Part shown: positions 15,473-45,933 of the stretch, in pieces
How the letters are laid out: every line of letters starts with the position of its first letter
How positions within the stretch are numbered: position 1 is the stretch's first letter
DNA from: Acidobacteriota bacterium
Lineage (GTDB): Bacteria > Acidobacteriota > Vicinamibacteria > Vicinamibacterales > UBA2999
NCBI GenBank assembly: GCA_021730945.1
Contig: JAKFYH010000050.1
Location: 1 to 46,118 of the forward strand
Reading direction: 5' to 3'
DNA: 46,118 nucleotides
Notes under the pieces: generated by a model
What the model was told of the DNA's origin: nothing
Database searches by the model: none
Seen by the model: only the letters and a program-made list of their open reading frames with translations
Made by a program: the position numbers and the translations under genes

Positions 15473-15501
15473 AGTGTAACCCGGCGACCGGCGCCTATAA
15501 T
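15473..15501. promoter_or_regulatory. compact divergent promoter pair
   Basis: TATAAT (15496-15501) lies 5 bp before the GTG at 15507. TACACT on the minus strand (15478-15473) lies 6 bp before the ATG at 15466. Only 40 bp separate the two genes. Both spacings would place transcription starts at or next to the start codons, so both messages are predicted to be leaderless. Confidence 0.5.
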
Positions 15502-15506
15502 CCGCC

Positions 15507-17999
15507 GTGCCAATCTGGGCGCGGACAATTGTAGTGGCGGCGGGCCTTCGCGTGGCGGCCGCGCTGGTGCTGTACCTCTCAGGGAGTCATGCGCACGGTG
15601 AGCCTCCGCCGCTGCCCTGGCTGATCTACGCGGCGTTGGCCGCCTGCTTCGGCGTACTCGGAGCGGCATTGACCGTCGTCAACCGGCATGACATTCGCTG
15701 CGCGTGGCTCGGTGGCACCTTCGTTCTGGTGGCCGCGCCGTTGACCTCGCCGTTCTTCACCGACCTGCCGCCAAGGGAGTTTGGCTGGTTGTGGTTCGTG
15801 CGTCCGGACGCCCTTCTTCCCGCGTTTCTCTGGCGGTTCGCGGCGGAATTCCCGTCGCCCCTGGTCGGCCGGCCCTCGCGTGTGTTCCATGTCGTCGCGC
15901 ACACGGCGACCGCGGTCGGTTTCCTGATCGCGGCCGTGAACCTCTCTCTCGCCGCGTGGCCGGCGGCGGTCACCGATCCGAGAATGTGGCTGCGCCCGCC
16001 AGGTGCCGCCGCCGTCAGCTTGTACTACCCGTTACTTTACGGACTGACCGCCGGCGCATTCGCCGCGCTGATCTGGCGGGCCTCGCGAGGCCGTGCCGAC
16101 GAGCAACGGCGCTTGCTGCTGTTCGCCGTTGGCCTGACCGCGGGCGCGGCGCCGCTGTTGTTGCAGGTCCTGCTCGAAACGATTCCTGCCTACTACACCT
16201 TCGTGCATCGACCAGGCATTGAACAAGCGGTGGGTCTGGTCGTGTTCGGGGCGCTGGTGTTGATTCCCTTCGTGACGGCGTACTCGGTCTTGTTTGATCA
16301 CGTCGTGGACATCAAGGTCGTGTTGCGGGCGGCACTGCAGTACGCCCTGGCGCGCTATACCATCCTGATCGTGGCGGCGCTGCCGTTTGCGGCGCTGCTG
16401 GTGCTGCTCTACCGCGAGCGCACACAGCCGCTGGTGGCCTTCGTCAGCGGCACCCGCCCCCTGATGCTCGGCGGGACGGTCGTGTTTGGCTTGCTGGCGC
16501 TCCGCCTGCGGCATCGGCTGATCGGGATGCTCAACCGGCGATATTTCCGCGAGCCTTACGACACCCGCAAGCTGCTCGACCAGATCATGAGCGACGCCGT
16601 GCGAGCCGTCTCGGCGGCCGACCTGCAGGAGCGCCTGCGCGGGTCGATCGCGCGCGCGATGTACGCGGACGCGTGGTTGCTGGTCCACGACCACACTTCA
16701 GGGATGCTGGCCCGGCCGGACCGGACCTGGCCGATCCCAGCGTCTGGTGTGCTGATCACCCTGGCACAGGGCGACAGCGTCGCCATGGATGTCGACCCCA
16801 GCGACCGGCGTTCGCCATTTCGGCGGCTCCCCCCCGACGAGCAACGTTGGCTGCTCGATGGAGGCTTCGTCCTGATCGTGCCGTTGCTGCTGGCCGACGG
16901 CCGCCTCCTGGGGCTGCTCGGACTGGCCGCGAAGCGAAGCGGGTTGCCGTATTCGACCGACGACCGGCAGCTCCTCGGCGCCGTCGCGACCTCGGCGGCG
17001 CTCACCCTCGATAACCTGCGCCTGCGGTCTGCCGCTGGTGACTCCTCCGATCGGGCTGCCCGGGAGTGTCAGTCGTGTTCGAAGTTGAATGGCCCCGATG
17101 CCGAGAAGTGCGTGTGCGGCGGTCCCGTGACCCCCTGTGCGGCGCCTCACTCCCTGCGCGGGATCTACCGGTTCGATCGGAAGATCGGCGCCGGTGGCAT
17201 GGGAGTGGTCTACCTGGCCCGCGACCTGAACCTTGATCGCCCCGTCGCCATCAAGACATTGCCGACGGTCTCGGCCGAGCACTCGGCACGCCTGCGCACG
17301 GAGGCGCGCGCGATGGCCGCCGTTCAGCATCACAACCTGGCCGTGATTCACGGCATCGAAACGTGGCAGGGCACGCCGTTCCTGGTGCAGGAGTTCCTGG
17401 CCGGCGGCACCCTGGCCGAACGCCTGCGCGGGCAGCCTATGGGGGTGAACGACGCCCTGCAGCTCGTGGCAACCATCGCGCTGGCGTTGGAGCACCTGCA
17501 TGCGGCGGGTATCGTGCACTGTGACGTGAAGCCGTCGAACATCGGATTTACCGACCACGACGTGCCCAAACTGCTCGACTTCGGACTCGCCCGGCTGCCC
17601 AAGCTGGTCGATCCCGAGACGCACACCGGCAGTGAGACCCGAAGCGACGCGCCGGTGAAATTTGGCGACACGGCCGTCCATGGTGGTACGCCGGCGTACA
17701 TGTCGCCGGAAGCGCTTGATGGCGTGGTGGCACCCAGGCCGGCGCTCGACTTGTGGGCGCTCGGAGTGGTGTGCTTTGAATGCCTCACCGGGCGACGGCC
17801 GTTTGGCGGCGCCTCGCGCGACGAGATCAAGGCGAGCGTCAGCGGCGGCCTGTTGGAGCCGCCGAGCCGGCTGAACGACCGCTGTTCACCGGCGCTGGAC
17901 GGATTCCTGACGGCCTGGTTGCACGCGCAACCGGCCCGCCGGCCCGCTTCCGCGAGGGAGATATGGAACCAACTGGAACGCTTGCGCGTCACTCTCTGA
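15507..17999 (+). CDS. membrane-bound GAF serine/threonine protein kinase
   Basis: This 830-aa protein has an N-terminal membrane domain (about eight to ten hydrophobic helices, residues 1-350) and a GAF-like domain (about 365-510, ending TSAALTLDNLRLR). A four-Cys C-x2-C-x10-C-x-C segment (about 521-537, probably a zinc ribbon) and a Hanks-type kinase domain (about 552-825) follow. The kinase shows GAGGMGVVYLA, the Lys in VAIKTL, HCDVKPSN in the catalytic loop (Cys replaces the common Arg), LLDFGLARL, GTPAYMSPEAL and DLWALGVVCFE. It should phosphorylate Ser/Thr targets in response to a membrane or GAF signal. An HCD rather than HRD loop suggests it is not activated by ordinary activation-loop phosphorylation (family knowledge). 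It is followed by a small protein and a protease that look cotranscribed. Confidence 0.87.
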   Translation: MPIWARTIVVAAGLRVAAALVLYLSGSHAHGEPPPLPWLIYAALAACFGVLGAALTVVNRHDIRCAWLGGTFVLVAAPLTSPFFTDLPPREFGWLWFVRPDALLPAFLWRFAAEFPSPLVGRPSRVFHVVAHTATAVGFLIAAVNLSLAAWPAAVTDPRMWLRPPGAAAVSLYYPLLYGLTAGAFAALIWRASRGRADEQRRLLLFAVGLTAGAAPLLLQVLLETIPAYYTFVHRPGIEQAVGLVVFGALVLIPFVTAYSVLFDHVVDIKVVLRAALQYALARYTILIVAALPFAALLVLLYRERTQPLVAFVSGTRPLMLGGTVVFGLLALRLRHRLIGMLNRRYFREPYDTRKLLDQIMSDAVRAVSAADLQERLRGSIARAMYADAWLLVHDHTSGMLARPDRTWPIPASGVLITLAQGDSVAMDVDPSDRRSPFRRLPPDEQRWLLDGGFVLIVPLLLADGRLLGLLGLAAKRSGLPYSTDDRQLLGAVATSAALTLDNLRLRSAAGDSSDRAARECQSCSKLNGPDAEKCVCGGPVTPCAAPHSLRGIYRFDRKIGAGGMGVVYLARDLNLDRPVAIKTLPTVSAEHSARLRTEARAMAAVQHHNLAVIHGIETWQGTPFLVQEFLAGGTLAERLRGQPMGVNDALQLVATIALALEHLHAAGIVHCDVKPSNIGFTDHDVPKLLDFGLARLPKLVDPETHTGSETRSDAPVKFGDTAVHGGTPAYMSPEALDGVVAPRPALDLWALGVVCFECLTGRRPFGGASRDEIKASVSGGLLEPPSRLNDRCSPALDGFLTAWLHAQPARRPASAREIWNQLERLRVTL

Positions 18000-18053
18000 T
18001 AGCAATAGAGTGTGGCTTCTCCGATTCGTACCCCCGCTGAGTAGGAGGCTGTT

Positions 18054-18407
18054 GTGGCAAAGAAATCCGCACGGAAGAAGTCGCCGCCCACCGTCGAGTC
18101 CATCCTCAAGGAGTGCATCAAGGAAGTGAAGAAAGGCCTCGGCGCCAAGCGCCCGTCGGCTGACGCGCGCAAGTTCTGGATTGACAAGTGCCGCGTCAGC
18201 ATCGCGACGCAACTCTCCGCCGGCGGCAACTGGGAGGCCGACAAGAAGAACGTGCTGCCGACTGCTCGCAAGATGGGCAAGGTGGCGGCGGCGCTGGCCA
18301 CCGGCAAGATCGTGTTGATGTGGGCAGCCGCCGCAGCGGCCGACGCGGTGCAGGCTGACCCCCGCTGCCCCGGGGGACCCGGCGGTGGCGGTTACTGTGA
18401 CTTCTAG
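18054..18407 (+). CDS. small Lys-rich protein with an Ala-rich hydrophobic segment, 117 aa
   Basis: The N-terminus is very basic (KKSARKKS) and a helical region follows (SILKECIKEVKKGLG). Then comes an Ala-rich hydrophobic stretch at about residues 76-99 (VAAALATGKIVLMWAAAAAADAV) and a short tail with two Cys and a Gly run (CPGGPGGGGYC) before the final DF. GTG 18054 is supported by AGGAGG at 18043-18048. No family is recognised. The gene lies 54 bp after the kinase gene and 8 bp before a papain-like protease, so it could be the protease's substrate, or a kinase target, or a peptide precursor. None of these is shown. Confidence 0.65.
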   Translation: MAKKSARKKSPPTVESILKECIKEVKKGLGAKRPSADARKFWIDKCRVSIATQLSAGGNWEADKKNVLPTARKMGKVAAALATGKIVLMWAAAAAADAVQADPRCPGGPGGGGYCDF

Positions 18408-18415
18408 GCCGCGCC

Positions 18416-19660
18416 ATGCCGGACGTCTTCGTCGCGGTACCATTCGTCAAGCAGGAGACGCTGTTCTATTGCGGACCTGCGACCCTGCAGATGTTGCTGA
18501 CGTCGCTCGGCGTGGCCTCTCCGGCCACGCCGCCGTCGTGGCAGGAAGCGCTGTGGGCAGAGGTTGAGGCCAACACCGGAGCGGTTCGTCCGCCCGGCGC
18601 GCCGAGTACCCCTACTGCCCCCTACTTTCCCACTCAAAAGTGCGAATCATGCGGCTCCACCGTCGGGTGGAAGTGCTGGTCGACGACTCCCGACGTACTG
18701 GAGGACCTCGCTAATGCTCACCAGAGCGTCGCGCGATATTCCATCTCCACCCACGTCGGCGAGTCCACGGCCACTGGCGTGCTCATGGACACCATCGATG
18801 CCAACCTGCCAGGCGTCGTTCTGATCCGAGGGTGGCAACACTGGGTGGCGATTGACGGTTATTTGCACAGCGAACCAGGCGCCACCGCCGTCGCCGGCCG
18901 CAACTTGAACGGCGTCTACATCCGAGACCCATGGACATCCGCGGCGACCCACTATGTCGATTGGAGTACGTGGAAGGTCTCCTACCTGAAGATTGTGCCC
19001 TGTGGCGCCTATGCCGGCACGATGGTCGCCATCGGCGGGGTTCGTCTCGGATCGCCGGCCCCTCCGGCCCGGCCGGCTCCACGAGCGCCCACGGGCCTGC
19101 GAATCATCGACCCACTTGACGATCCGCTGCGGTTCTCCACCCGCGAGGTAAAGATGATCGTGTCGCCGGCGCTCGCCATTGAGCATGCTCAACAAGGGGT
19201 CACCGGGCTCGCCGGCGCCGCGCGCCTGCGTCCCGGCTTCGATGCGGCCAGGGCCACCAAGGCGCTCCTGGTGCAGCGACTCGACGGCCACGATCGCTAC
19301 TACTACATCGTGACGTTCGAGGCCGGCGATCGCGAAACCGCCCGCGTGATCGTTGAGGCCGACGACGGCCGCGTGACCGAAGTGCAGGCGGTGCAGGAGA
19401 CCGGCCAGTCGCTCGCGCCGTATCCGACCGCGGATTCCGGCCGCCGCCGGCTGGTGGCAGCGGTTGAAGGTCTGTCGCCGCCACTGCACTACCGGATTCG
19501 TGAAGGGACGGTCGGCGAACACCCGGTGCCGGTCTGGAAGCCGTGCGGCCAATCGTCGTCGCCGTTCCTGCCGTTCTGGCAGTACTCGGTCGGCGATTCG
19601 TTCGTCTACTACCGCTTCGACGGCCTGCGCTTCGACGAACTGACGGAAGGCCCCGCTTAG
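18416..19660 (+). CDS. papain-like / C39-type cysteine protease family protein
   Basis: The first about 200 residues of this 414-aa protein are a papain-like fold of the C39-like type. PFVKQETLFYCGPATLQMLL carries the predicted catalytic Cys19, the His is in GWQHWVAIDGY (about residue 142), and the Asp is in GVYIRDPW. A Cys-rich insert (KCESCGSTVGWKCW, about residues 79-92) is unusual. The C-terminal half (after a Pro-rich linker at about 215-225) has no recognised domain and ends in FRFDELTEGPA-like beta-rich sequence. There is no signal peptide and no ABC transporter, so it is not a classical bacteriocin C39 exporter. It lies 8 bp after the 117-aa gene. Its last four bases overlap the convergent pseudouridine synthase gene. 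Confidence 0.75.
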   Translation: MPDVFVAVPFVKQETLFYCGPATLQMLLTSLGVASPATPPSWQEALWAEVEANTGAVRPPGAPSTPTAPYFPTQKCESCGSTVGWKCWSTTPDVLEDLANAHQSVARYSISTHVGESTATGVLMDTIDANLPGVVLIRGWQHWVAIDGYLHSEPGATAVAGRNLNGVYIRDPWTSAATHYVDWSTWKVSYLKIVPCGAYAGTMVAIGGVRLGSPAPPARPAPRAPTGLRIIDPLDDPLRFSTREVKMIVSPALAIEHAQQGVTGLAGAARLRPGFDAARATKALLVQRLDGHDRYYYIVTFEAGDRETARVIVEADDGRVTEVQAVQETGQSLAPYPTADSGRRRLVAAVEGLSPPLHYRIREGTVGEHPVPVWKPCGQSSSPFLPFWQYSVGDSFVYYRFDGLRFDELTEGPA

Positions 19661-40209: not shown

Positions 40210-41013
40210 CTATAGCTGGACGAGCACCGGGTCGCCAAGGTCGGCGTCGGTGAAATGCGTGCAGGCCCGCTTCTCGATGTTGATTAGCGTCTTGCTGGGG
40301 GTGAGGGTGCCCTCGTTGCCGTCATACGACAAATAGGCGTGCGTGCGGCGTTTGCGCGTCCAGCCGGCCACGAGATCGACGGCGATGCCAACGGCGGTGG
40401 AGGCGAGCACGCCGTTGGGCCAGACGACCTGCGGACGTCCACCGGCGTTGCCGTACAGCGCGGCCTCCGCCGCCAGCTTCTCCTCGGCCAAAAATCCCAT
40501 GCACGTCATGCACGGGCCGCCCGGCGACGAGAGGATCACTTGGCCGCCGATCACTGGCCGCTCATCGCCATGTACGTCCATGCCGATGTCGATGTAGTGC
40601 ATCAGGTAGCGCCGGCAGGCGATTTCGAGTTCGCGCCGCCCCCGATAGCTGTCGACGGCCCCGATCACGATCTGGCTCGCACGCAGTGGCTCTGGCTTCT
40701 CCTGCCACTTGCAGGCGTAGCCCCTGATAATGGCGTTGGGCTGCAGGCTCAGAATCCTCATCTTGGCGATGTGCAGCTTGGGGGTCGCAGCGACGGCGTC
40801 TCGCGCCTCGGCGCCGACGAGGCGGTTGAGGTTCGACTCCTCGACGACGTCATCGTCGTAGAGCACGTAGCGCTGAAAGCCGATGTGGGCCAGCTGCTGG
40901 ACGATGTGCGAGCCGCCGCCGCCTAGGCCCGGCACGCCGATGGTCACGCGGGCGATCAGCGCCTCCGCATCCGCGCCCAGGAACGACTGGCGCGCAAACC
41001 TCTCGGCGGTCAT
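40210..41013 (-). CDS. ThiF/E1-like adenylyltransferase of the multi-ubiquitin cassette
   Basis: This 267-aa E1-like enzyme should adenylate the C-terminus of a ubiquitin-like protein. It has the Gly-rich ATP loop GLGGGGSH (29-36), YDDDVVEESNLNRL (52-65) with the conserved Asp and NLNR, K84 and the VDSYRGRREL segment (120-129). A PCMTCMGF motif (C168, C171) could be a catalytic or zinc Cys pair. It is a stand-alone E1 with no E2 domain fused, unlike Cap2 of type II CBASS. Its ATG overlaps the protease stop (ATGA). It is the last gene of the locus. Confidence 0.88.
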   Translation of the reverse strand: MTAERFARQSFLGADAEALIARVTIGVPGLGGGGSHIVQQLAHIGFQRYVLYDDDVVEESNLNRLVGAEARDAVAATPKLHIAKMRILSLQPNAIIRGYACKWQEKPEPLRASQIVIGAVDSYRGRRELEIACRRYLMHYIDIGMDVHGDERPVIGGQVILSSPGGPCMTCMGFLAEEKLAAEAALYGNAGGRPQVVWPNGVLASTAVGIAVDLVAGWTRKRRTHAYLSYDGNEGTLTPSKTLINIEKRACTHFTDADLGDPVLVQL

Positions 41014-41534
41014 AAGCTTCTGCTCCGATCAAACACCTGCACTGGCGCTCCGACGACGGCGATGTTGCCGCACGGCACCAGCGTCGCATCGCCCGGAAGG
41101 CAGACCCAGGCTGAGCCGTGGTCGAGGCTGAGGATGATGATCCCGTGTGGCGCATCACGCCCCACGGATTGAAGGCCCGGCATCATCAGCGGAATTTCTT
41201 CCCGGTCGGTCCTGCTCATACCGGTTTCGCCCTTATAGCCATGGAGGTGAATGTGGAATAGGCCCTCACGCGCGACTCGGCCGTGATAGACCGCCTGCAT
41301 CGCCCAAGTCATCGCGTCGGAGCCGATTCGCGCGCCGACAGTCGGGTCGTTGATGTACTGCTTGTCGGGAATCGCGTGGTACCGAGTGAGGAGCACGAGC
41401 TTGCCGCTGGCGTCGCCGGTGCCGACGCGGCCGAAGACGAAGCCCACGCGCTCATGGGCGAAAGCATGCGGCCGCTCCAGATCGCGCCGAATCTCACCGT
41501 ACAGCCTGCCGGTCAGCTTGATGGCGACGGTCAT
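41010..41534 (-). CDS. JAB/MPN (JAMM) metalloprotease, deubiquitinase-like
   Basis: This 174-aa protein has a complete JAMM zinc site: Glu28 in HERVGFVFG, then HIHLHGYKGETGMSRTD giving the His pair (H96/H98, or H94/H96), Ser107 and Asp110. Such enzymes cleave after the C-terminal Gly of ubiquitin-like proteins. Here it should trim the GG-SS tail of the multi-ubiquitin protein or remove it from targets. ATG 41534 overlaps the E2-like stop by four bases (ATGA) and is preferred over an upstream start at 41609. Confidence 0.86.
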   Translation of the reverse strand: MTVAIKLTGRLYGEIRRDLERPHAFAHERVGFVFGRVGTGDASGKLVLLTRYHAIPDKQYINDPTVGARIGSDAMTWAMQAVYHGRVAREGLFHIHLHGYKGETGMSRTDREEIPLMMPGLQSVGRDAPHGIIILSLDHGSAWVCLPGDATLVPCGNIAVVGAPVQVFDRSRSL

Positions 41535-41881
41535 TTTTCCTTCGTGAACCCCAAGAGGTGTGCCAACAGCATTTGCGCGAGGGTCAAATTCGCGCCGTCG
41601 ACCTTCCACGAGAAGGCAAACCAGTTCTTCTCGCCGATACGCGCGTTCTCGCAGTTCCAGTTCCGGTCGAAGGGCGACTTCACCTTGGCCGAGAGGTACA
41701 GGCGCGACGGGTAGTTGTCGCGACTGACCGGGCAGAGCAGCGCGTCACAGATCTGCGGCTCGCAGCCGGCCGGAAGGCGGAGTCCCTCGAGACTGAAGAA
41801 GGGCATCCCGCCTTCCGTGAACGTGCTCAGCTTCGAGCAGTAAGGTTTGAGCTCGTCGGTCTGTGCGCGGGGATATTCCAT
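41531..41881 (-). CDS. E2-like protein candidate of the multi-ubiquitin cassette, 116 aa
   Basis: This small protein lies exactly where an E2-type enzyme is found in multi-ubiquitin operons. It has the E2-like progression of beta strands: FFSLEGLRLPAGCEP, DALLCPVSRDNYPSRLYLS, NWFAFSWKV and a C-terminal LTLAQMLLAHLLGF helix. The LP..C.P and YPSRL phrases recall divergent prokaryotic E2 families. Cysteines are at C15, C40, C45, C50 and C76; I cannot say which, if any, is catalytic. No HPN motif is visible. It follows the ubiquitin-like gene by 14 bp and shares ATGA with the protease gene. Confidence 0.6.
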   Translation of the reverse strand: MEYPRAQTDELKPYCSKLSTFTEGGMPFFSLEGLRLPAGCEPQICDALLCPVSRDNYPSRLYLSAKVKSPFDRNWNCENARIGEKNWFAFSWKVDGANLTLAQMLLAHLLGFTKEK

Positions 41882-41895
41882 GACGAGCAGTTCCT

Positions 41896-42393
41896 CTACG
41901 ATGAGCCGCCCGACTGCACCTGGTAATGGAAGACCTCGCAGCCTTGGATGTCGACCGGCTGATTGGCCGGCAGCGGCAGCGGCGGGCCGTCCTTCTCCTC
42001 GAGCAGCGCGTAGGCGTCTGGCGTTTTCCCGACCTTTCCAAGAATCTCGGCCACGGTGCGCTGACCGCGTTCGATGGCGTACGGGTCGCCCTCGATGTAG
42101 ATGGTGACGATTTCCTTGTGCGCGGTGATGAAGCGCTTGAGGTGTTGGTCAGCCAGGTCCACGGTCTCCTGCGGCTCGATGACGTCGTTCTCGTGGTGCT
42201 TGAACTCGGCGATCAGTTCGAAGGCGCAAGACTTCTTGCCGACGAGCCCCAGCAGCGCCTCGCCGCTCGGGTGCTGTTCGTGGACATCGATGTTGTCGCC
42301 GTCGATGTGCACGTGGTAGGTGGTCGTGTGCGGCCCGCCGTGCGGCTTGGCGCCAGTGTCGCTGCCATTTTCTACAGAATCAGGACTATTCAC
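41896..42393 (-). CDS. multi-ubiquitin protein with two beta-grasp repeats
   Basis: This 165-aa protein has a short disordered start and two tandem ubiquitin-like domains (about 25-92 starting TTYHVHIDG, and 95-160 starting IVTIYIEGDPYAIERG). It ends SGGSS. The di-Gly at 162-163 followed by two residues implies processing by the JAMM protease before activation by the E1. The GTG at 42393 is supported by AAGGGAG with a 6-bp spacer; an ATG at 42429 is the alternative. It matches the Multi_ubiq family known from comparative genomics. The 226-bp gap before it suggests its own promoter apart from the CBASS genes. Confidence 0.85.
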   Translation of the reverse strand: MNSPDSVENGSDTGAKPHGGPHTTTYHVHIDGDNIDVHEQHPSGEALLGLVGKKSCAFELIAEFKHHENDVIEPQETVDLADQHLKRFITAHKEIVTIYIEGDPYAIERGQRTVAEILGKVGKTPDAYALLEEKDGPPLPLPANQPVDIQGCEVFHYQVQSGGSS

Positions 42394-42619
42394 TTGAAAC
42401 TCCCTTCTCACGCCGTGGCCCGACGACATTCGCGGACCGACATGATGTGAACCATTGTGCCGGCTGCGGGACGCGAGGGATGTGGACGGAGCCGACCAAA
42501 GATGTGAGCGGGAAATCTCAAGATCAGCGACTTTATTCGCGGAGAAGAACGAACATGTGAGTTCTCAGCGAAGAGACGTGAGCGCCTATGCCGGAACCTG
42601 AAGCGCCGGCGCGATCCTG
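42394..42619. other. gap between CBASS effector and ubiquitin cassette
   Basis: No gene is supported. It holds the ribosome site of the multi-ubiquitin gene. On the minus strand there are weak promoter-like elements (for example TTGAGA around 42521 and a TAAAGT around 42535), none convincing. It may carry a separate promoter for the cassette or a transcript break. Confidence 0.4.
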
Positions 42620-44080
42620 TCATCCGGGAAACTCGAACGTGGCGACGTAGCCGGGGCTGAGGTCCTCGTAGACGATGGTCGTTCCAACCCGGTTCCATAT
42701 ATGACCGAGTAGGAGTGCAGCGCCGGCCGGTGCAGACATGAATAGGTGAACCCGTCGCGCGCCTAAATCACGAACAGCAGCACGAATACTGTCACGCGTG
42801 GCGTGGGCCCACCCGACAGCCGCACCCGCGTCAGGTAGCGACAGCGGTCCAACACCGCCTTGTGGAGATAAGTCGACGTACCGTGCCACCGGCAGGCTCA
42901 CCTGCTTGCAATACGAGACCACGTCCGCGGTGATACCGTTGGTTACGCTAAGCCCGACTGCGAGATCTGGCCCCTGCGAAAGGTCAACGACTGCGGCAGC
43001 GAGATTGAATGCTGTTGGCGGAATCTCGCTCGCCCAGAGTTGGCCCTTCTGTTTGCATGCGACCCGGTGCTGCCGGATATCGGGAAGCTCCACACCGCAC
43101 ATGAACCAAACGGCGAGTCGCATGTATCCGCGAACCATGACGCGCTCGTTCCCGGTCGCCTTGAGCGTTTTCGCAGCGGCGATGAGGTCAGGGCGAAGGC
43201 GTCCATTCCAGTTCTTCGGATCTCGAAGCTGGCGGCGTGCCCGCGGTTCATCTCCGCTAAAGAGGTCGACCCAGTCGAGCCGCACTTGGCCGGCGTCTGC
43301 CCACGGCGCTCGATCGATCGCTTCAACGACGAGGGTGGAGTAGCTGTTGTCGCCGGAGAGGCCGCGCCTTTCAATCTCAGCGCACAGCTCATCGCGATTC
43401 AACGTGCGCTTTCCGCCCTTCACCATCGCCCGAATGACCGCAACGCCGATCTCTACGTCAGTGTCTGAAGTGCGAAGCCCGGCGTAGCCCATGCGATCCG
43501 AGGCCACATTCACGAGGTCACTCCACGGACCTTGGTCGGTCTTGAGTCCCAGCCGGCAAAGCAGTTCCAGAAGCTCCTCCTCGGGGACGCCTGCGTGACT
43601 CACCCACTCTGCGATCGCCTTCCTCGCCGCCGAACGAGGTCTTTCAGTTGCGAGACGTTGGCCCAGCGTGCCCGTCGTACCACACCGGAGCTTTAGGACT
43701 GGATCAGTTGGGTCAAGGACGCGATTCGTGAAGAGGAGGAGATCGGGCGCCATCCCCTTTGACTTCAGCAGATGCCAGCTGGCCATGAATCGCTCGAGGG
43801 GACTCTTTGAGCCAGCCCCAGGCCCTCGGGTTGTGAACCACTCCGATGACACTGGCTTACTTGCATCGACGGAGTACTTCACCTGCGTATATTCGTCGGG
43901 ACCGCTCGTCCGTCGCACCACGACGTCGTCGACGTTTCCGGCGCTGAGGGCTTCGACCTCGATCCGCGTGACGTCCGTCCGCGGCGTGAGTAACCTCAAG
44001 GCCTGCCACCACGCGTAGAGGTGCTGATAGTCGTCGCCCTGGATGCGCGCGCCGCTGGCCGATGTGAGTGTTGCGGTCAT
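42620..44080 (-). CDS. cap4: Cap4-type CBASS effector: DUF4297 nuclease with SAVED sensor domain
   Basis: This 486-aa protein has an N-terminal DUF4297 (PD-(D/E)xK) dsDNA endonuclease domain: GDDYQHLYAWWQALRLL, the acidic residues E41/E43 and D51/D52, and the QVK of YTQVKY (Q66, K68). The C-terminal SAVED domain (about 270-486) ends HLFMSAPAGAALLLGHIWNRVG and YVATFEF. SAVED binds the cyclic oligonucleotide made by the CD-NTase and switches on DNA cleavage, killing the infected cell (established for Cap4). The ATG at 44080 lies 7 bp after the CD-NTase stop; an upstream extension to 44209 is antisense-like overlap and was dropped. Confidence 0.88.
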   Translation of the reverse strand: MTATLTSASGARIQGDDYQHLYAWWQALRLLTPRTDVTRIEVEALSAGNVDDVVVRRTSGPDEYTQVKYSVDASKPVSSEWFTTRGPGAGSKSPLERFMASWHLLKSKGMAPDLLLFTNRVLDPTDPVLKLRCGTTGTLGQRLATERPRSAARKAIAEWVSHAGVPEEELLELLCRLGLKTDQGPWSDLVNVASDRMGYAGLRTSDTDVEIGVAVIRAMVKGGKRTLNRDELCAEIERRGLSGDNSYSTLVVEAIDRAPWADAGQVRLDWVDLFSGDEPRARRQLRDPKNWNGRLRPDLIAAAKTLKATGNERVMVRGYMRLAVWFMCGVELPDIRQHRVACKQKGQLWASEIPPTAFNLAAAVVDLSQGPDLAVGLSVTNGITADVVSYCKQVSLPVARYVDLSPQGGVGPLSLPDAGAAVGWAHATRDSIRAAVRDLGARRVHLFMSAPAGAALLLGHIWNRVGTTIVYEDLSPGYVATFEFPG

Positions 44081-44087
44081 GTTGGCC

Positions 44088-44975
44088 TCACGCCGATGGA
44101 AAGTACCGCCCGAGGATGTCGCGCCACAGCGCGAGCGCTTCGCCTTGTCGGCCTTCCTTCTCGAAACGCACGGCTCTAGTCGCATCGACCTCGGCCTTTC
44201 GAAGTGCAACGGCGGCGGTCGTACGCTTTTCGCTTGTCATCTGATCGGATACGGGCGGCCCGTAGCCCGCCGGATCCGGCCACTCTTGGCTGATGCCGTT
44301 TAGCGCGGCGGCGAAAAAGCGGCGCACCTCGCTCGGGTAGCTCGTGAACGGCCCGTCGACGAGTTCTTGCGCCATCACCTCGACAAGGAAGGATGGTTCG
44401 ATGGGCTTTCCTGCCTGGCGGTTCCACGCCTTCAACATCTTGACGAGGGGAACCCACTTGCAGTCGAGGGACTTGTTCTTGGCGGTCGACTCCGTCGCGT
44501 GCACGTCGGGATTGCTCTTGATCCATCTGCCCAGGTGGCCGTCGGCGATCTCGTAGCAGTCGCTCAATGCGATGGCGGGGACAGCGTCGATCGACAACAC
44601 CTTCCCGTCCTCTGTCACGGTAGGGTTCTTCTTGTCGAAGGTGACAGTGACGCAACGGCGCCCGCGCTCGACGGCGTCGCTGCCATAAGCCTTGACGAGG
44701 CAGTCCTCAAACGCCTCGAGGACTGCACTGGGTGCCTTTTCGCGCCACTTCTTCTTCGAGTCGCCGACGAGCGGGAAGAAGATGTCAACGTCCTTGAGCG
44801 GCTTTGTTTTCGTGTATCGCGCGTAGGAGCCGGTCAGGAAGTCGCCCTCGACGTCGAAGACGGCTCTGATCTCGTCGCGAACGCTCTTGTGTCTGCGCTG
44901 CGCGTCCTCAGCCTCTGTCTGGCTGAGCTCGAGGCGCTGACGGAAGCTCTCGAAGGCTTCAGTAGTCGTTTTCAT
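44088..44975 (-). CDS. CD-NTase (CBASS cyclic oligonucleotide synthase)
   Basis: This 295-aa SMODS-type nucleotidyltransferase has the GS motif at residues 49-50 (LTGSYARYTKTKPL), the metal-binding Asp pair D62/D64 (KDVDIFF) and the third acidic residue D130 (LSIDAVPAI). The helical C-terminal half contains VKMLKAWNRQAGKPIEPSFLVEVM. It should make a cyclic di- or trinucleotide when activated by infection. The Cap4 partner and the HORMA neighbour fit clades C or D, but the clade and the product cannot be fixed from sequence alone. The ATG overlaps the HORMA stop (ATGA). Confidence 0.92.
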   Translation of the reverse strand: MKTTTEAFESFRQRLELSQTEAEDAQRRHKSVRDEIRAVFDVEGDFLTGSYARYTKTKPLKDVDIFFPLVGDSKKKWREKAPSAVLEAFEDCLVKAYGSDAVERGRRCVTVTFDKKNPTVTEDGKVLSIDAVPAIALSDCYEIADGHLGRWIKSNPDVHATESTAKNKSLDCKWVPLVKMLKAWNRQAGKPIEPSFLVEVMAQELVDGPFTSYPSEVRRFFAAALNGISQEWPDPAGYGPPVSDQMTSEKRTTAAVALRKAEVDATRAVRFEKEGRQGEALALWRDILGRYFPSA

Positions 44976-45472
44976 TTTCTGTAGTACCTCGCGGATGCCA
45001 TGAGATCGGGAGTGACGATGACGCTGCCCGCCTCGCGCGCAGTGAGTGTTCCCATCGAGAAGGCCGGCGCGTCGCCGACTCCCTTGACCGGAGGAGCGCC
45101 AGGGCTCGTCGCCAGAACGATTCGGTAGAGCGCTCCCGCAGGCGGCCTCTCAGCCTTCGCGATGGACTCGCGAAAATGGTCCTCGTCAACGTAAAGATCG
45201 GCCTCGCCGTTGCCGTCGTAGCGGATTGGAAACTCGAATCCGCCGCGGACGAGCGTTTCCCCAGGCATGTGAAATTGGATCTTGAACGCAATTAGGTGGC
45301 CGCTTTCCATCCACGTGCGAGCGGCGAGATCGATCCATTCGGTCCACGCATCGGCAACGCCGCGCGGGTCGAAGCCGAACGCGTTAACAAGTCGCTTCAT
45401 CAGACCGGCGATCTTGTCCGACACATAGGCGGCGGTGTGCGTGCGGGCGTAAGCGAGAGTCCTGGTGGTCAT
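44972..45472 (-). CDS. bacterial HORMA-domain protein (Cap7-like)
   Basis: This 166-aa protein matches the known CBASS HORMA proteins of E. coli and Pseudomonas in layout: ARTHTAAYVSDKIAGLMKRL near the N-terminus, GFDPRGVADAWTEW, TWMESGHLIAFKIQFHMPG, FEFPIRYDG, YRIVLATSPGAPPV, and a C-terminal ARYYRK. HORMA proteins close around peptide motifs and then activate the CD-NTase; TRIP13-type ATPases reopen them. ATG 45472 overlaps the upstream stop (ATGA). No TRIP13 gene is visible; the gene that may have encoded it is truncated by an IS element next to the 154-aa gene. Confidence 0.85.
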   Translation of the reverse strand: MTTRTLAYARTHTAAYVSDKIAGLMKRLVNAFGFDPRGVADAWTEWIDLAARTWMESGHLIAFKIQFHMPGETLVRGGFEFPIRYDGNGEADLYVDEDHFRESIAKAERPPAGALYRIVLATSPGAPPVKGVGDAPAFSMGTLTAREAGSVIVTPDLMASARYYRK

Positions 45473-45933
45473 GCCTTCTCCATCGCGGTCCAATCAATCT
45501 GGACCTCGGCGACCTTTCGAGTTGGTTCGACATCGGCGTCCGGTGTCCCGTTGACGTCGTGCACCGTGATACGTGGCGCGCGCTCCTTGAGCGCCTTTGA
45601 CATCCAGCCGACGTCTTCGTAGGAGCACGGTACCGTGATCGCCCAGGCCTCGCTTGCGGTCGGGTTCCAGCTCAGCTTGTCGACCTCGAGCTCCATCTCC
45701 ATCGCGTCGGAGCCGTGCACGGTGTAGATCACTAGGCGCGAAGCGCCGCCCTTCACGACGATTGGGACTGACGCGGAGTGTTCGTCAGCGATCGCTGAGC
45801 ACAGAACACTGGTAGCGGCCTGGAGCTGTACAGTTTCGACGGAGTCAGCGCCGGTGATGAGCTTGAGGATGGCGTCCCACGTTTCCTTTGACGTACGCGC
45901 GGGGAGCGACGCGATATCACGCCTGATCTTCAC
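45469..45933 (-). CDS. unknown CBASS-linked protein, 154 aa
   Basis: The family is not recognised with confidence. The protein begins KIRRDIASLPARTSKETWDAILKLITG and has a beta-rich middle (PIVVKGGASRLVIYTVHG). A TVPCSYEDVGWMSKALKERAPRITVHDV segment follows, and the C-terminus, VQIDWTAMEKA, is acidic to neutral. By position it could be the second HORMA-like regulator (Cap8-type) or an E2-like remnant; I cannot decide. The GTG at 45933 is fixed by AAGGAGG and a GTGA overlap with the broken upstream gene, and its stop overlaps the HORMA start (ATGA). Coupling on both sides makes it an integral part of the defence operon. Confidence 0.75.
   Translation of the reverse strand: MKIRRDIASLPARTSKETWDAILKLITGADSVETVQLQAATSVLCSAIADEHSASVPIVVKGGASRLVIYTVHGSDAMEMELEVDKLSWNPTASEAWAITVPCSYEDVGWMSKALKERAPRITVHDVNGTPDADVEPTRKVAEVQIDWTAMEKA

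Follow-up and report, generated by a model that had tools for sequence, protein, structure and literature searches.

A membrane GAF kinase, a small predicted four-helix protein and a papain-like enzyme encoded side by side in Acidobacteriota: a possible signalling pair with exchangeable output

The window, a 46,118-nucleotide stretch of an Acidobacteriota genome (assembly GCA_021730945.1, contig JAKFYH010000050.1), harbors three consecutive genes on its forward strand: a membrane Ser/Thr kinase, a 117-aa partner protein and a papain-like (C39-like) enzyme. The same arrangement recurs in three further genomes of the family, so that a few soil-type bacteria share it, and near its C-terminus the small protein of the four loci has a Gly-rich aromatic-Cys motif seen in no other of the 45 small-protein matches. 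In sister loci, the kinase and the small protein are mostly accompanied by an ECF sigma gene. We tentatively propose, at somewhat less than even confidence, that the kinase signals together with the small protein as a pair, and that the enzyme replaces the ECF sigma output and acts on the tail of the small protein under kinase control.

Organization of the locus and the kinase

The kinase ORF (15507-17999, 830 aa) and the small ORF (18054-18407, 117 aa) both begin with GTG, the latter preceded by AGGAGG, while the third ORF (18416-19660, 414 aa) begins with ATG. The intervals are 54 bp and 8 bp. GC3 is 0.79-0.86 across the three ORFs, a coding signal is present, and for the small and third ORFs the own frame scores best. 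ORFs, gaps and coding signal thus confirm the three genes as real and correctly placed, as in the earlier note, which had described a GAF kinase followed by a 117-aa protein and a third gene at these spacings. A scan of the locus for promoters and terminators found nothing. A TATAAT sequence (15496-15501) is located immediately upstream of the kinase GTG at 15507. This start is uncertain, the gene caller having chosen the GTG at 15534; with TATAAT directly before the first GTG, a later kinase start or a leaderless transcript are both conceivable.

The kinase (15507..17999, +, or from 15534) has a hydrophobic N-terminus with several hydrophobic spans, followed by a GAF domain (about 16695-17012, +), a zinc-ribbon-like CxxC-x(10)-CxC motif (17067-17117, +) and the kinase domain (about 17166-17963, +). 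Family matches are to Pkinase (E 3.3e-41), GAF_2 (7.2e-7) and GAF (1.8e-6), and the Gly loop, VAIK, HCDVKPSN, DFG and SPE motifs can be recognized. Its closest relative is the kinase of genome G087 (43-44% identity), and this pair is supported at 100/99 to 100/100 across trees. The G107 kinase reaches 43% identity in its kinase part and 32% along a portion of the N-terminus, and that of G084 is 29% identical. As read from the sequences, the main Hanks-type catalytic motifs are kept in the window, G087 and G107 kinases. The G084 kinase has a shortened domain, matching only the first 147 of 263 Pkinase model positions; this protein (L117:4033-6216) has HGDIASRN, and its domain ends early.

The small partner protein and its tail

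The small protein (18054..18407, +) is predicted to fold into a soluble bundle of four helices followed by a flexible tail with Cys residues, the modelled helices spanning residues 14-29, 36-55, 60-81 and 88-101 (mean pLDDT 81.3, pTM 0.70, tail at low confidence). The features mentioned in the earlier note are present as described: a head rich in Lys, an Ala-rich segment and the CPGGPGGGGYC tail. The hydropathy of the Ala-rich stretch peaks at 1.72 (residues 77-95), and the stretch is modelled within helices 3 and 4; a role as membrane anchor was rejected because the segment is predicted to be part of the soluble bundle.

No family in Pfam or NCBIfam, anti-sigma families included, matches the small protein at a meaningful E-value. 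Foldseek gave no fold match at E<=0.001 (best E 1.5), and a viral library nothing at the same threshold. Structural matches resembling AAA+ lids (VIA Z up to 7.0; Foldseek E 1.5) are at the level expected by chance for helical bundles, PDB sequence matches (E 0.018 and above, 0.83) were also judged to be chance, and among solved structures none matches convincingly. A sigma mimic was rejected, there being no profile similarity to the sigma factor, and profile comparison with the enzyme likewise gave no similarity. A literature search, for which subscription journals were mostly outside reach, did not find the trio or the small-protein family. Judged by its sequence relatives, the small protein is a member of a wider family without a name. 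Identity to the window copy is 29% in G087, 28% in G084 and 33% in G107. A 20-row profile detects the family in 22 of 162 genomes of the order, and adding G007, G084 and G107 brings this to at least 25 of 162. Whole-genome tallies are lower bounds (at least 7/396, 22/162, 2/162 and 1/396, the last without G087 among its matches), since only a capped number of candidates is scored in each genome search; this may explain why the searches behind the 22/162 and 2/162 tallies passed over G084 and G107.

The tail (C105-PGGPGGGGY-C115; 18366..18398, +) contains GGGGYC, a version of the form G[GAS]G[GK][FYW]C shared by the trio loci (GGGGYC, GSGKWC, GAGKFC and GAGGYC). The aromatic-Cys pair itself is widespread: in one set of 39 proteins, 27 of the 28 that are single or second copies have it, and the 11 first tandem copies all lack it. 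The full motif occurs in 4 of 45 small-protein matches, exactly the four that precede an enzyme gene, an exclusivity that is partly circular because the motif was read off these four tails; with the rows also related to one another, it is suggestive and not proof. Two variants (L066:6137-6757, L073:3207-3800) carry an extra C-terminal extension with two more cysteines.

The papain-like enzyme

The enzyme (18416..19660, +) resembles papain-like peptidases in its N-terminal part. In its first 198 residues it matches Peptidase_C39_2 (PF13529; E 1.8e-4, 22.5 bits against a cut-off of 24) and DUF3335 (E 1.5e-4, 21.8 bits against 25). The G107 enzyme also matches Peptidase_C39_2 below the cut-off (E 4.9e-4, 21.1 bits against 24), and those of G087 and G084 do not match this family. 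In the alignment of the four, C19, G20, A22, H142, W143 and G148 are invariant. D171 is the likely third catalytic residue, read as Asp in the window and G107 and as Asn in G084, the G087 sequence giving no clear reading at this position. Identity to the window copy is 26% (G087), 17% (G084) and 32% (G107). A Cys insert, CESCGSTVGWKCW (18641..18679, +), has cysteines in common with G087 only, and these are absent in G084 and G107. The C-terminal part (19010..19657, +) has a weak PepSY-like match (E 0.057) and no convincing homologue, and structure prediction of the enzyme (pLDDT 32.6) is too low for a fold. On reading the sequence and the called genes, neither a signal peptide nor a neighbouring transporter gene was recognized. 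The earlier description as a C39-like protease lacking signal and transporter holds for the Cys and His residues and for these two features as read, while the family matches stay below threshold.

The enzyme has no match in the collection of genome contigs. A match in G117 was judged spurious, being antisense to a called gene, and weak matches in L006, L009, L010, L012, L014, L015 and L017 were dropped. Other proteases adjoining a small gene are single cases, a C1 peptidase in G152 and an M4 peptidase in G134.

Recurrence of the trio and distribution of its parts

The order kinase, small protein, enzyme is found in 4 of 43 family genomes, namely the window, G087, G084 and G107. The gaps between kinase and small gene and between small gene and enzyme are, respectively, 54 and 8 bp in the window, 45 and 14 bp in G087, 21 and 13 bp in G084 (taking an ATG further downstream as enzyme start, because the earliest ATG in the frame overlaps the small gene) and 78 and 11 bp in G107. 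The G087 enzyme gene is cut by the contig end, and the G107 contig has only 43 bp ahead of the kinase. The earlier note had suggested looking for the trio in other genomes, with lack of co-occurrence counting against it; the three genes do co-occur in three further genomes. In the 43 family genomes, a four-row small-protein profile gives the four at E below 1e-46; next come relatives from tandem pairs, none better than 1.2e-9, and two stop-containing matches at E 0.01 to 0.03. A four-row enzyme profile gives nothing beyond the four at E<=0.05. As the four loci themselves supplied the rows of each profile, the news in this result is that there is no fifth trio. Viral contigs, plasmids and phages gave no match. 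The trio evidence comprises four loci in one family.

The kinase-anchored survey covers all 111 listed kinase places (79 of 111 in an earlier pass) in 110 loci, the small protein being counted at E<=1e-4. Of the 23 loci that contain it, 17 include an ECF sigma gene, and the enzyme is absent from all 17. Altogether, 19 of the 23 lack the enzyme; G055, where the kinase is broken, and G096, at a contig start, have the small protein with neither ECF gene nor enzyme. Many ECF loci contain a tandem pair of small genes, and G098 is a probable further positive case split over two contigs (L026, L071). The survey places no sister-type ECF gene in the four trio loci, and searching the window and L021 (E<=1) as well as L117 and L172 with a sister ECF protein gave no match; other sigma types may occur there, since the search used one query, and the absence in G107 cannot be judged because its contig ends 43 bp upstream of the kinase. 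A different sigma-like gene, recognized by reading, is convergent to the G107 enzyme.

The link between kinase and small protein persists despite rearrangement, with the small gene preceding the kinase in G346, convergent to it in G007 and fused in frame to what is left of a kinase in G055. When 38 kinases are placed in a tree, the label for presence of the small protein changes 5 times, compared with 12.9 for shuffled labels (none of 500 shuffles gave so few), and the correctly labelled count should be lower still, since L117 was scored as lacking the protein and then proved positive (1 of the 5 changes). A tree of 26 rows separates the positive side from 5 rows at 100/100, a result valid for this limited sample only; with 12 further kinases added, as in the tree of 38, the positive kinases do not group as a single clade. 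The four trio kinases need 3 changes in a tree of 20, with 125 of 500 shuffles as low; they are too divergent to show one origin, though they may have one.

Several loci depart from these arrangements. In G055 (L020:2117-2932), the reading frame of the kinase N-terminus continues into the small protein, with the GAF and kinase domains missing; this join may be a deletion, a pseudogene or an assembly join. Small proteins away from any listed kinase occur in G009, G008, G006, G002, G161 (C16) and G371. In the first four genomes the small gene adjoins, by reading, a large receptor-like gene, and such kinase-less proteins beside receptor-like genes are located at L089:7990-8415, L090:7243-7659, L122:2884-3297 and L123:1546-1971. 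Tandem small genes are followed by two radical SAM genes in G044 (L027:5786-7706), and a small-gene pair by a 1537-aa protein with no Pfam match in G152 (L025:2776-7389).

Comparison with known systems

Cleavage by C39 peptidases takes place after GG, GA or GS, and double-glycine leaders have a G[GAS]-type pair at the C39 target site. The trio is similar in that Cys and His are in place, two of the four enzymes weakly match Peptidase_C39_2, and all four tails, the presumed target, contain a G[GAS] pair. A cut after G[GAS] in the tail would fit this specificity. Unlike C39 peptidases, the enzymes score below the family cut-off and no transporter gene is recognized by reading; in double-glycine leader systems the motif closes a leader, whereas here it is close to the C-terminus.

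In the known ECF sigma factor-kinase modules EcfP-PknT and EcfK-PknS (ECF43; PMC8999054; PMC13147305), the kinase is reported to phosphorylate a Thr in region 2 of the sigma factor. Most positive sister loci likewise pair an ECF gene with a membrane kinase. Their sigma factors have an invariant Thr in a comparable region 2.2 motif (DTxD or ETAD in 7 aligned factors), to be set beside the loss of the acidic DAED motif in ECF43. The window differs from these modules in that no sister-type ECF gene was detected and in the GAF and zinc-ribbon-like regions of its kinase; as far as the available text describes the modules, the small partner and the enzyme set the trio apart as well. In conflict systems with effector-associated domains (Kaur et al., 2020, 2021; PMC7159879; PMC8195603), small helical adaptors are described with varied outputs, including peptidases. 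There the domains are mostly fused to NTPases or effectors, whereas here a free protein occurs beside a kinase.

Proposed mechanism and competing explanations

In the proposed mechanism, the kinase and the small four-helix protein would form a signalling pair at the membrane, presumably through binding. In most sister loci the ECF sigma factor is the likely output, and in this lineage the neighbouring papain-like enzyme would take its place. If active, the enzyme would act on the Gly-rich aromatic-Cys tail, cutting or otherwise modifying it near G[GAS]G, and this action would be under kinase control, presumably through phosphorylation. What the data show is the gene order, its recurrence, the association of kinase and partner, and the tail motif specific to loci with the enzyme. 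Kinase control is the inferred part for which the shortened G084 kinase domain is a weak point. The earlier interpretation, in which the small protein is a substrate of the protease, is partly supported overall. Indirect support is that a G[GAS]G[GK][FYW]C tail and a following enzyme gene mark one and the same set of four small proteins; the small protein is nevertheless not dedicated to the protease, as shown by the 19 positive loci without it.

An alternative is an adaptor relay, in which the small protein binds and passes the kinase signal to the enzyme without being cut, the enzyme having other proteins as substrates. In its favor, family members serve kinases that have no such enzyme, sigma factor and enzyme look like alternatives, and the enzyme of the window has an additional, long C-terminal part. 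A relay alone would leave the enzyme-specific Gly motif of the tail unexplained, and we consider this explanation somewhat unlikely, if the strongest of the competitors. The soluble four-helix prediction, the position of the small gene next to an ECF-kinase pair in most positive loci and a flexible tail matched to the enzyme could also indicate an inhibitor or anti-sigma-like holder, which would silence the sigma factor or enzyme until phosphorylated, with the tail plugging the active site. The small protein has no anti-sigma family match, the invariant Thr of the sigma DTxD motif would allow the sigma factor to be phosphorylated directly, and profile similarity to the sigma factor is lacking (a comparison that bears on mimicry only); such a holder seems unlikely, less probable than the relay.

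Sporadic presence (4 of 43 family genomes) would fit a module for conflict or defence in which the enzyme is the effector, and the kinase domain matches the PADLOC PD-T4-6 models. These matches are confined to that domain, however, small protein and enzyme having none, and phage and plasmid records contain no match. At 40210-45933 on the reverse strand, the window has ThiF, Multi_ubiq, SMODS and bacterial HORMA matches that look like CBASS beside a ubiquitin-like module; this CBASS-like cluster shares the window with the trio but is more than 20 kb away, and a defence role appears very unlikely. That the enzyme is a chance neighbour, as 19 of 23 positive loci without it might suggest, is scarcely credible given an order and an 8-14 bp spacing kept in four loci whose enzymes are 17-32% identical to that of the window.

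Returning to the signalling pair with a substituted output, elsewhere a transcription factor accompanies this type of kinase and its small protein, so that one signalling input with exchangeable outputs may apply. In its most specific and rather doubtful form, the membrane GAF kinase and the four-helix protein would be the exchangeable input, and the output would be a sigma factor in most lineages and here a papain-like protease that releases or remodels the Gly-rich Cys tail as a signal. Signal relay from bacterial Ser/Thr kinases is known for few systems. If true, a small partner kept beside such kinases through rearrangement, with sigma factor and papain-like enzyme as apparently alternative outputs, would make the modular rewiring of kinase output directly testable with small soluble proteins.
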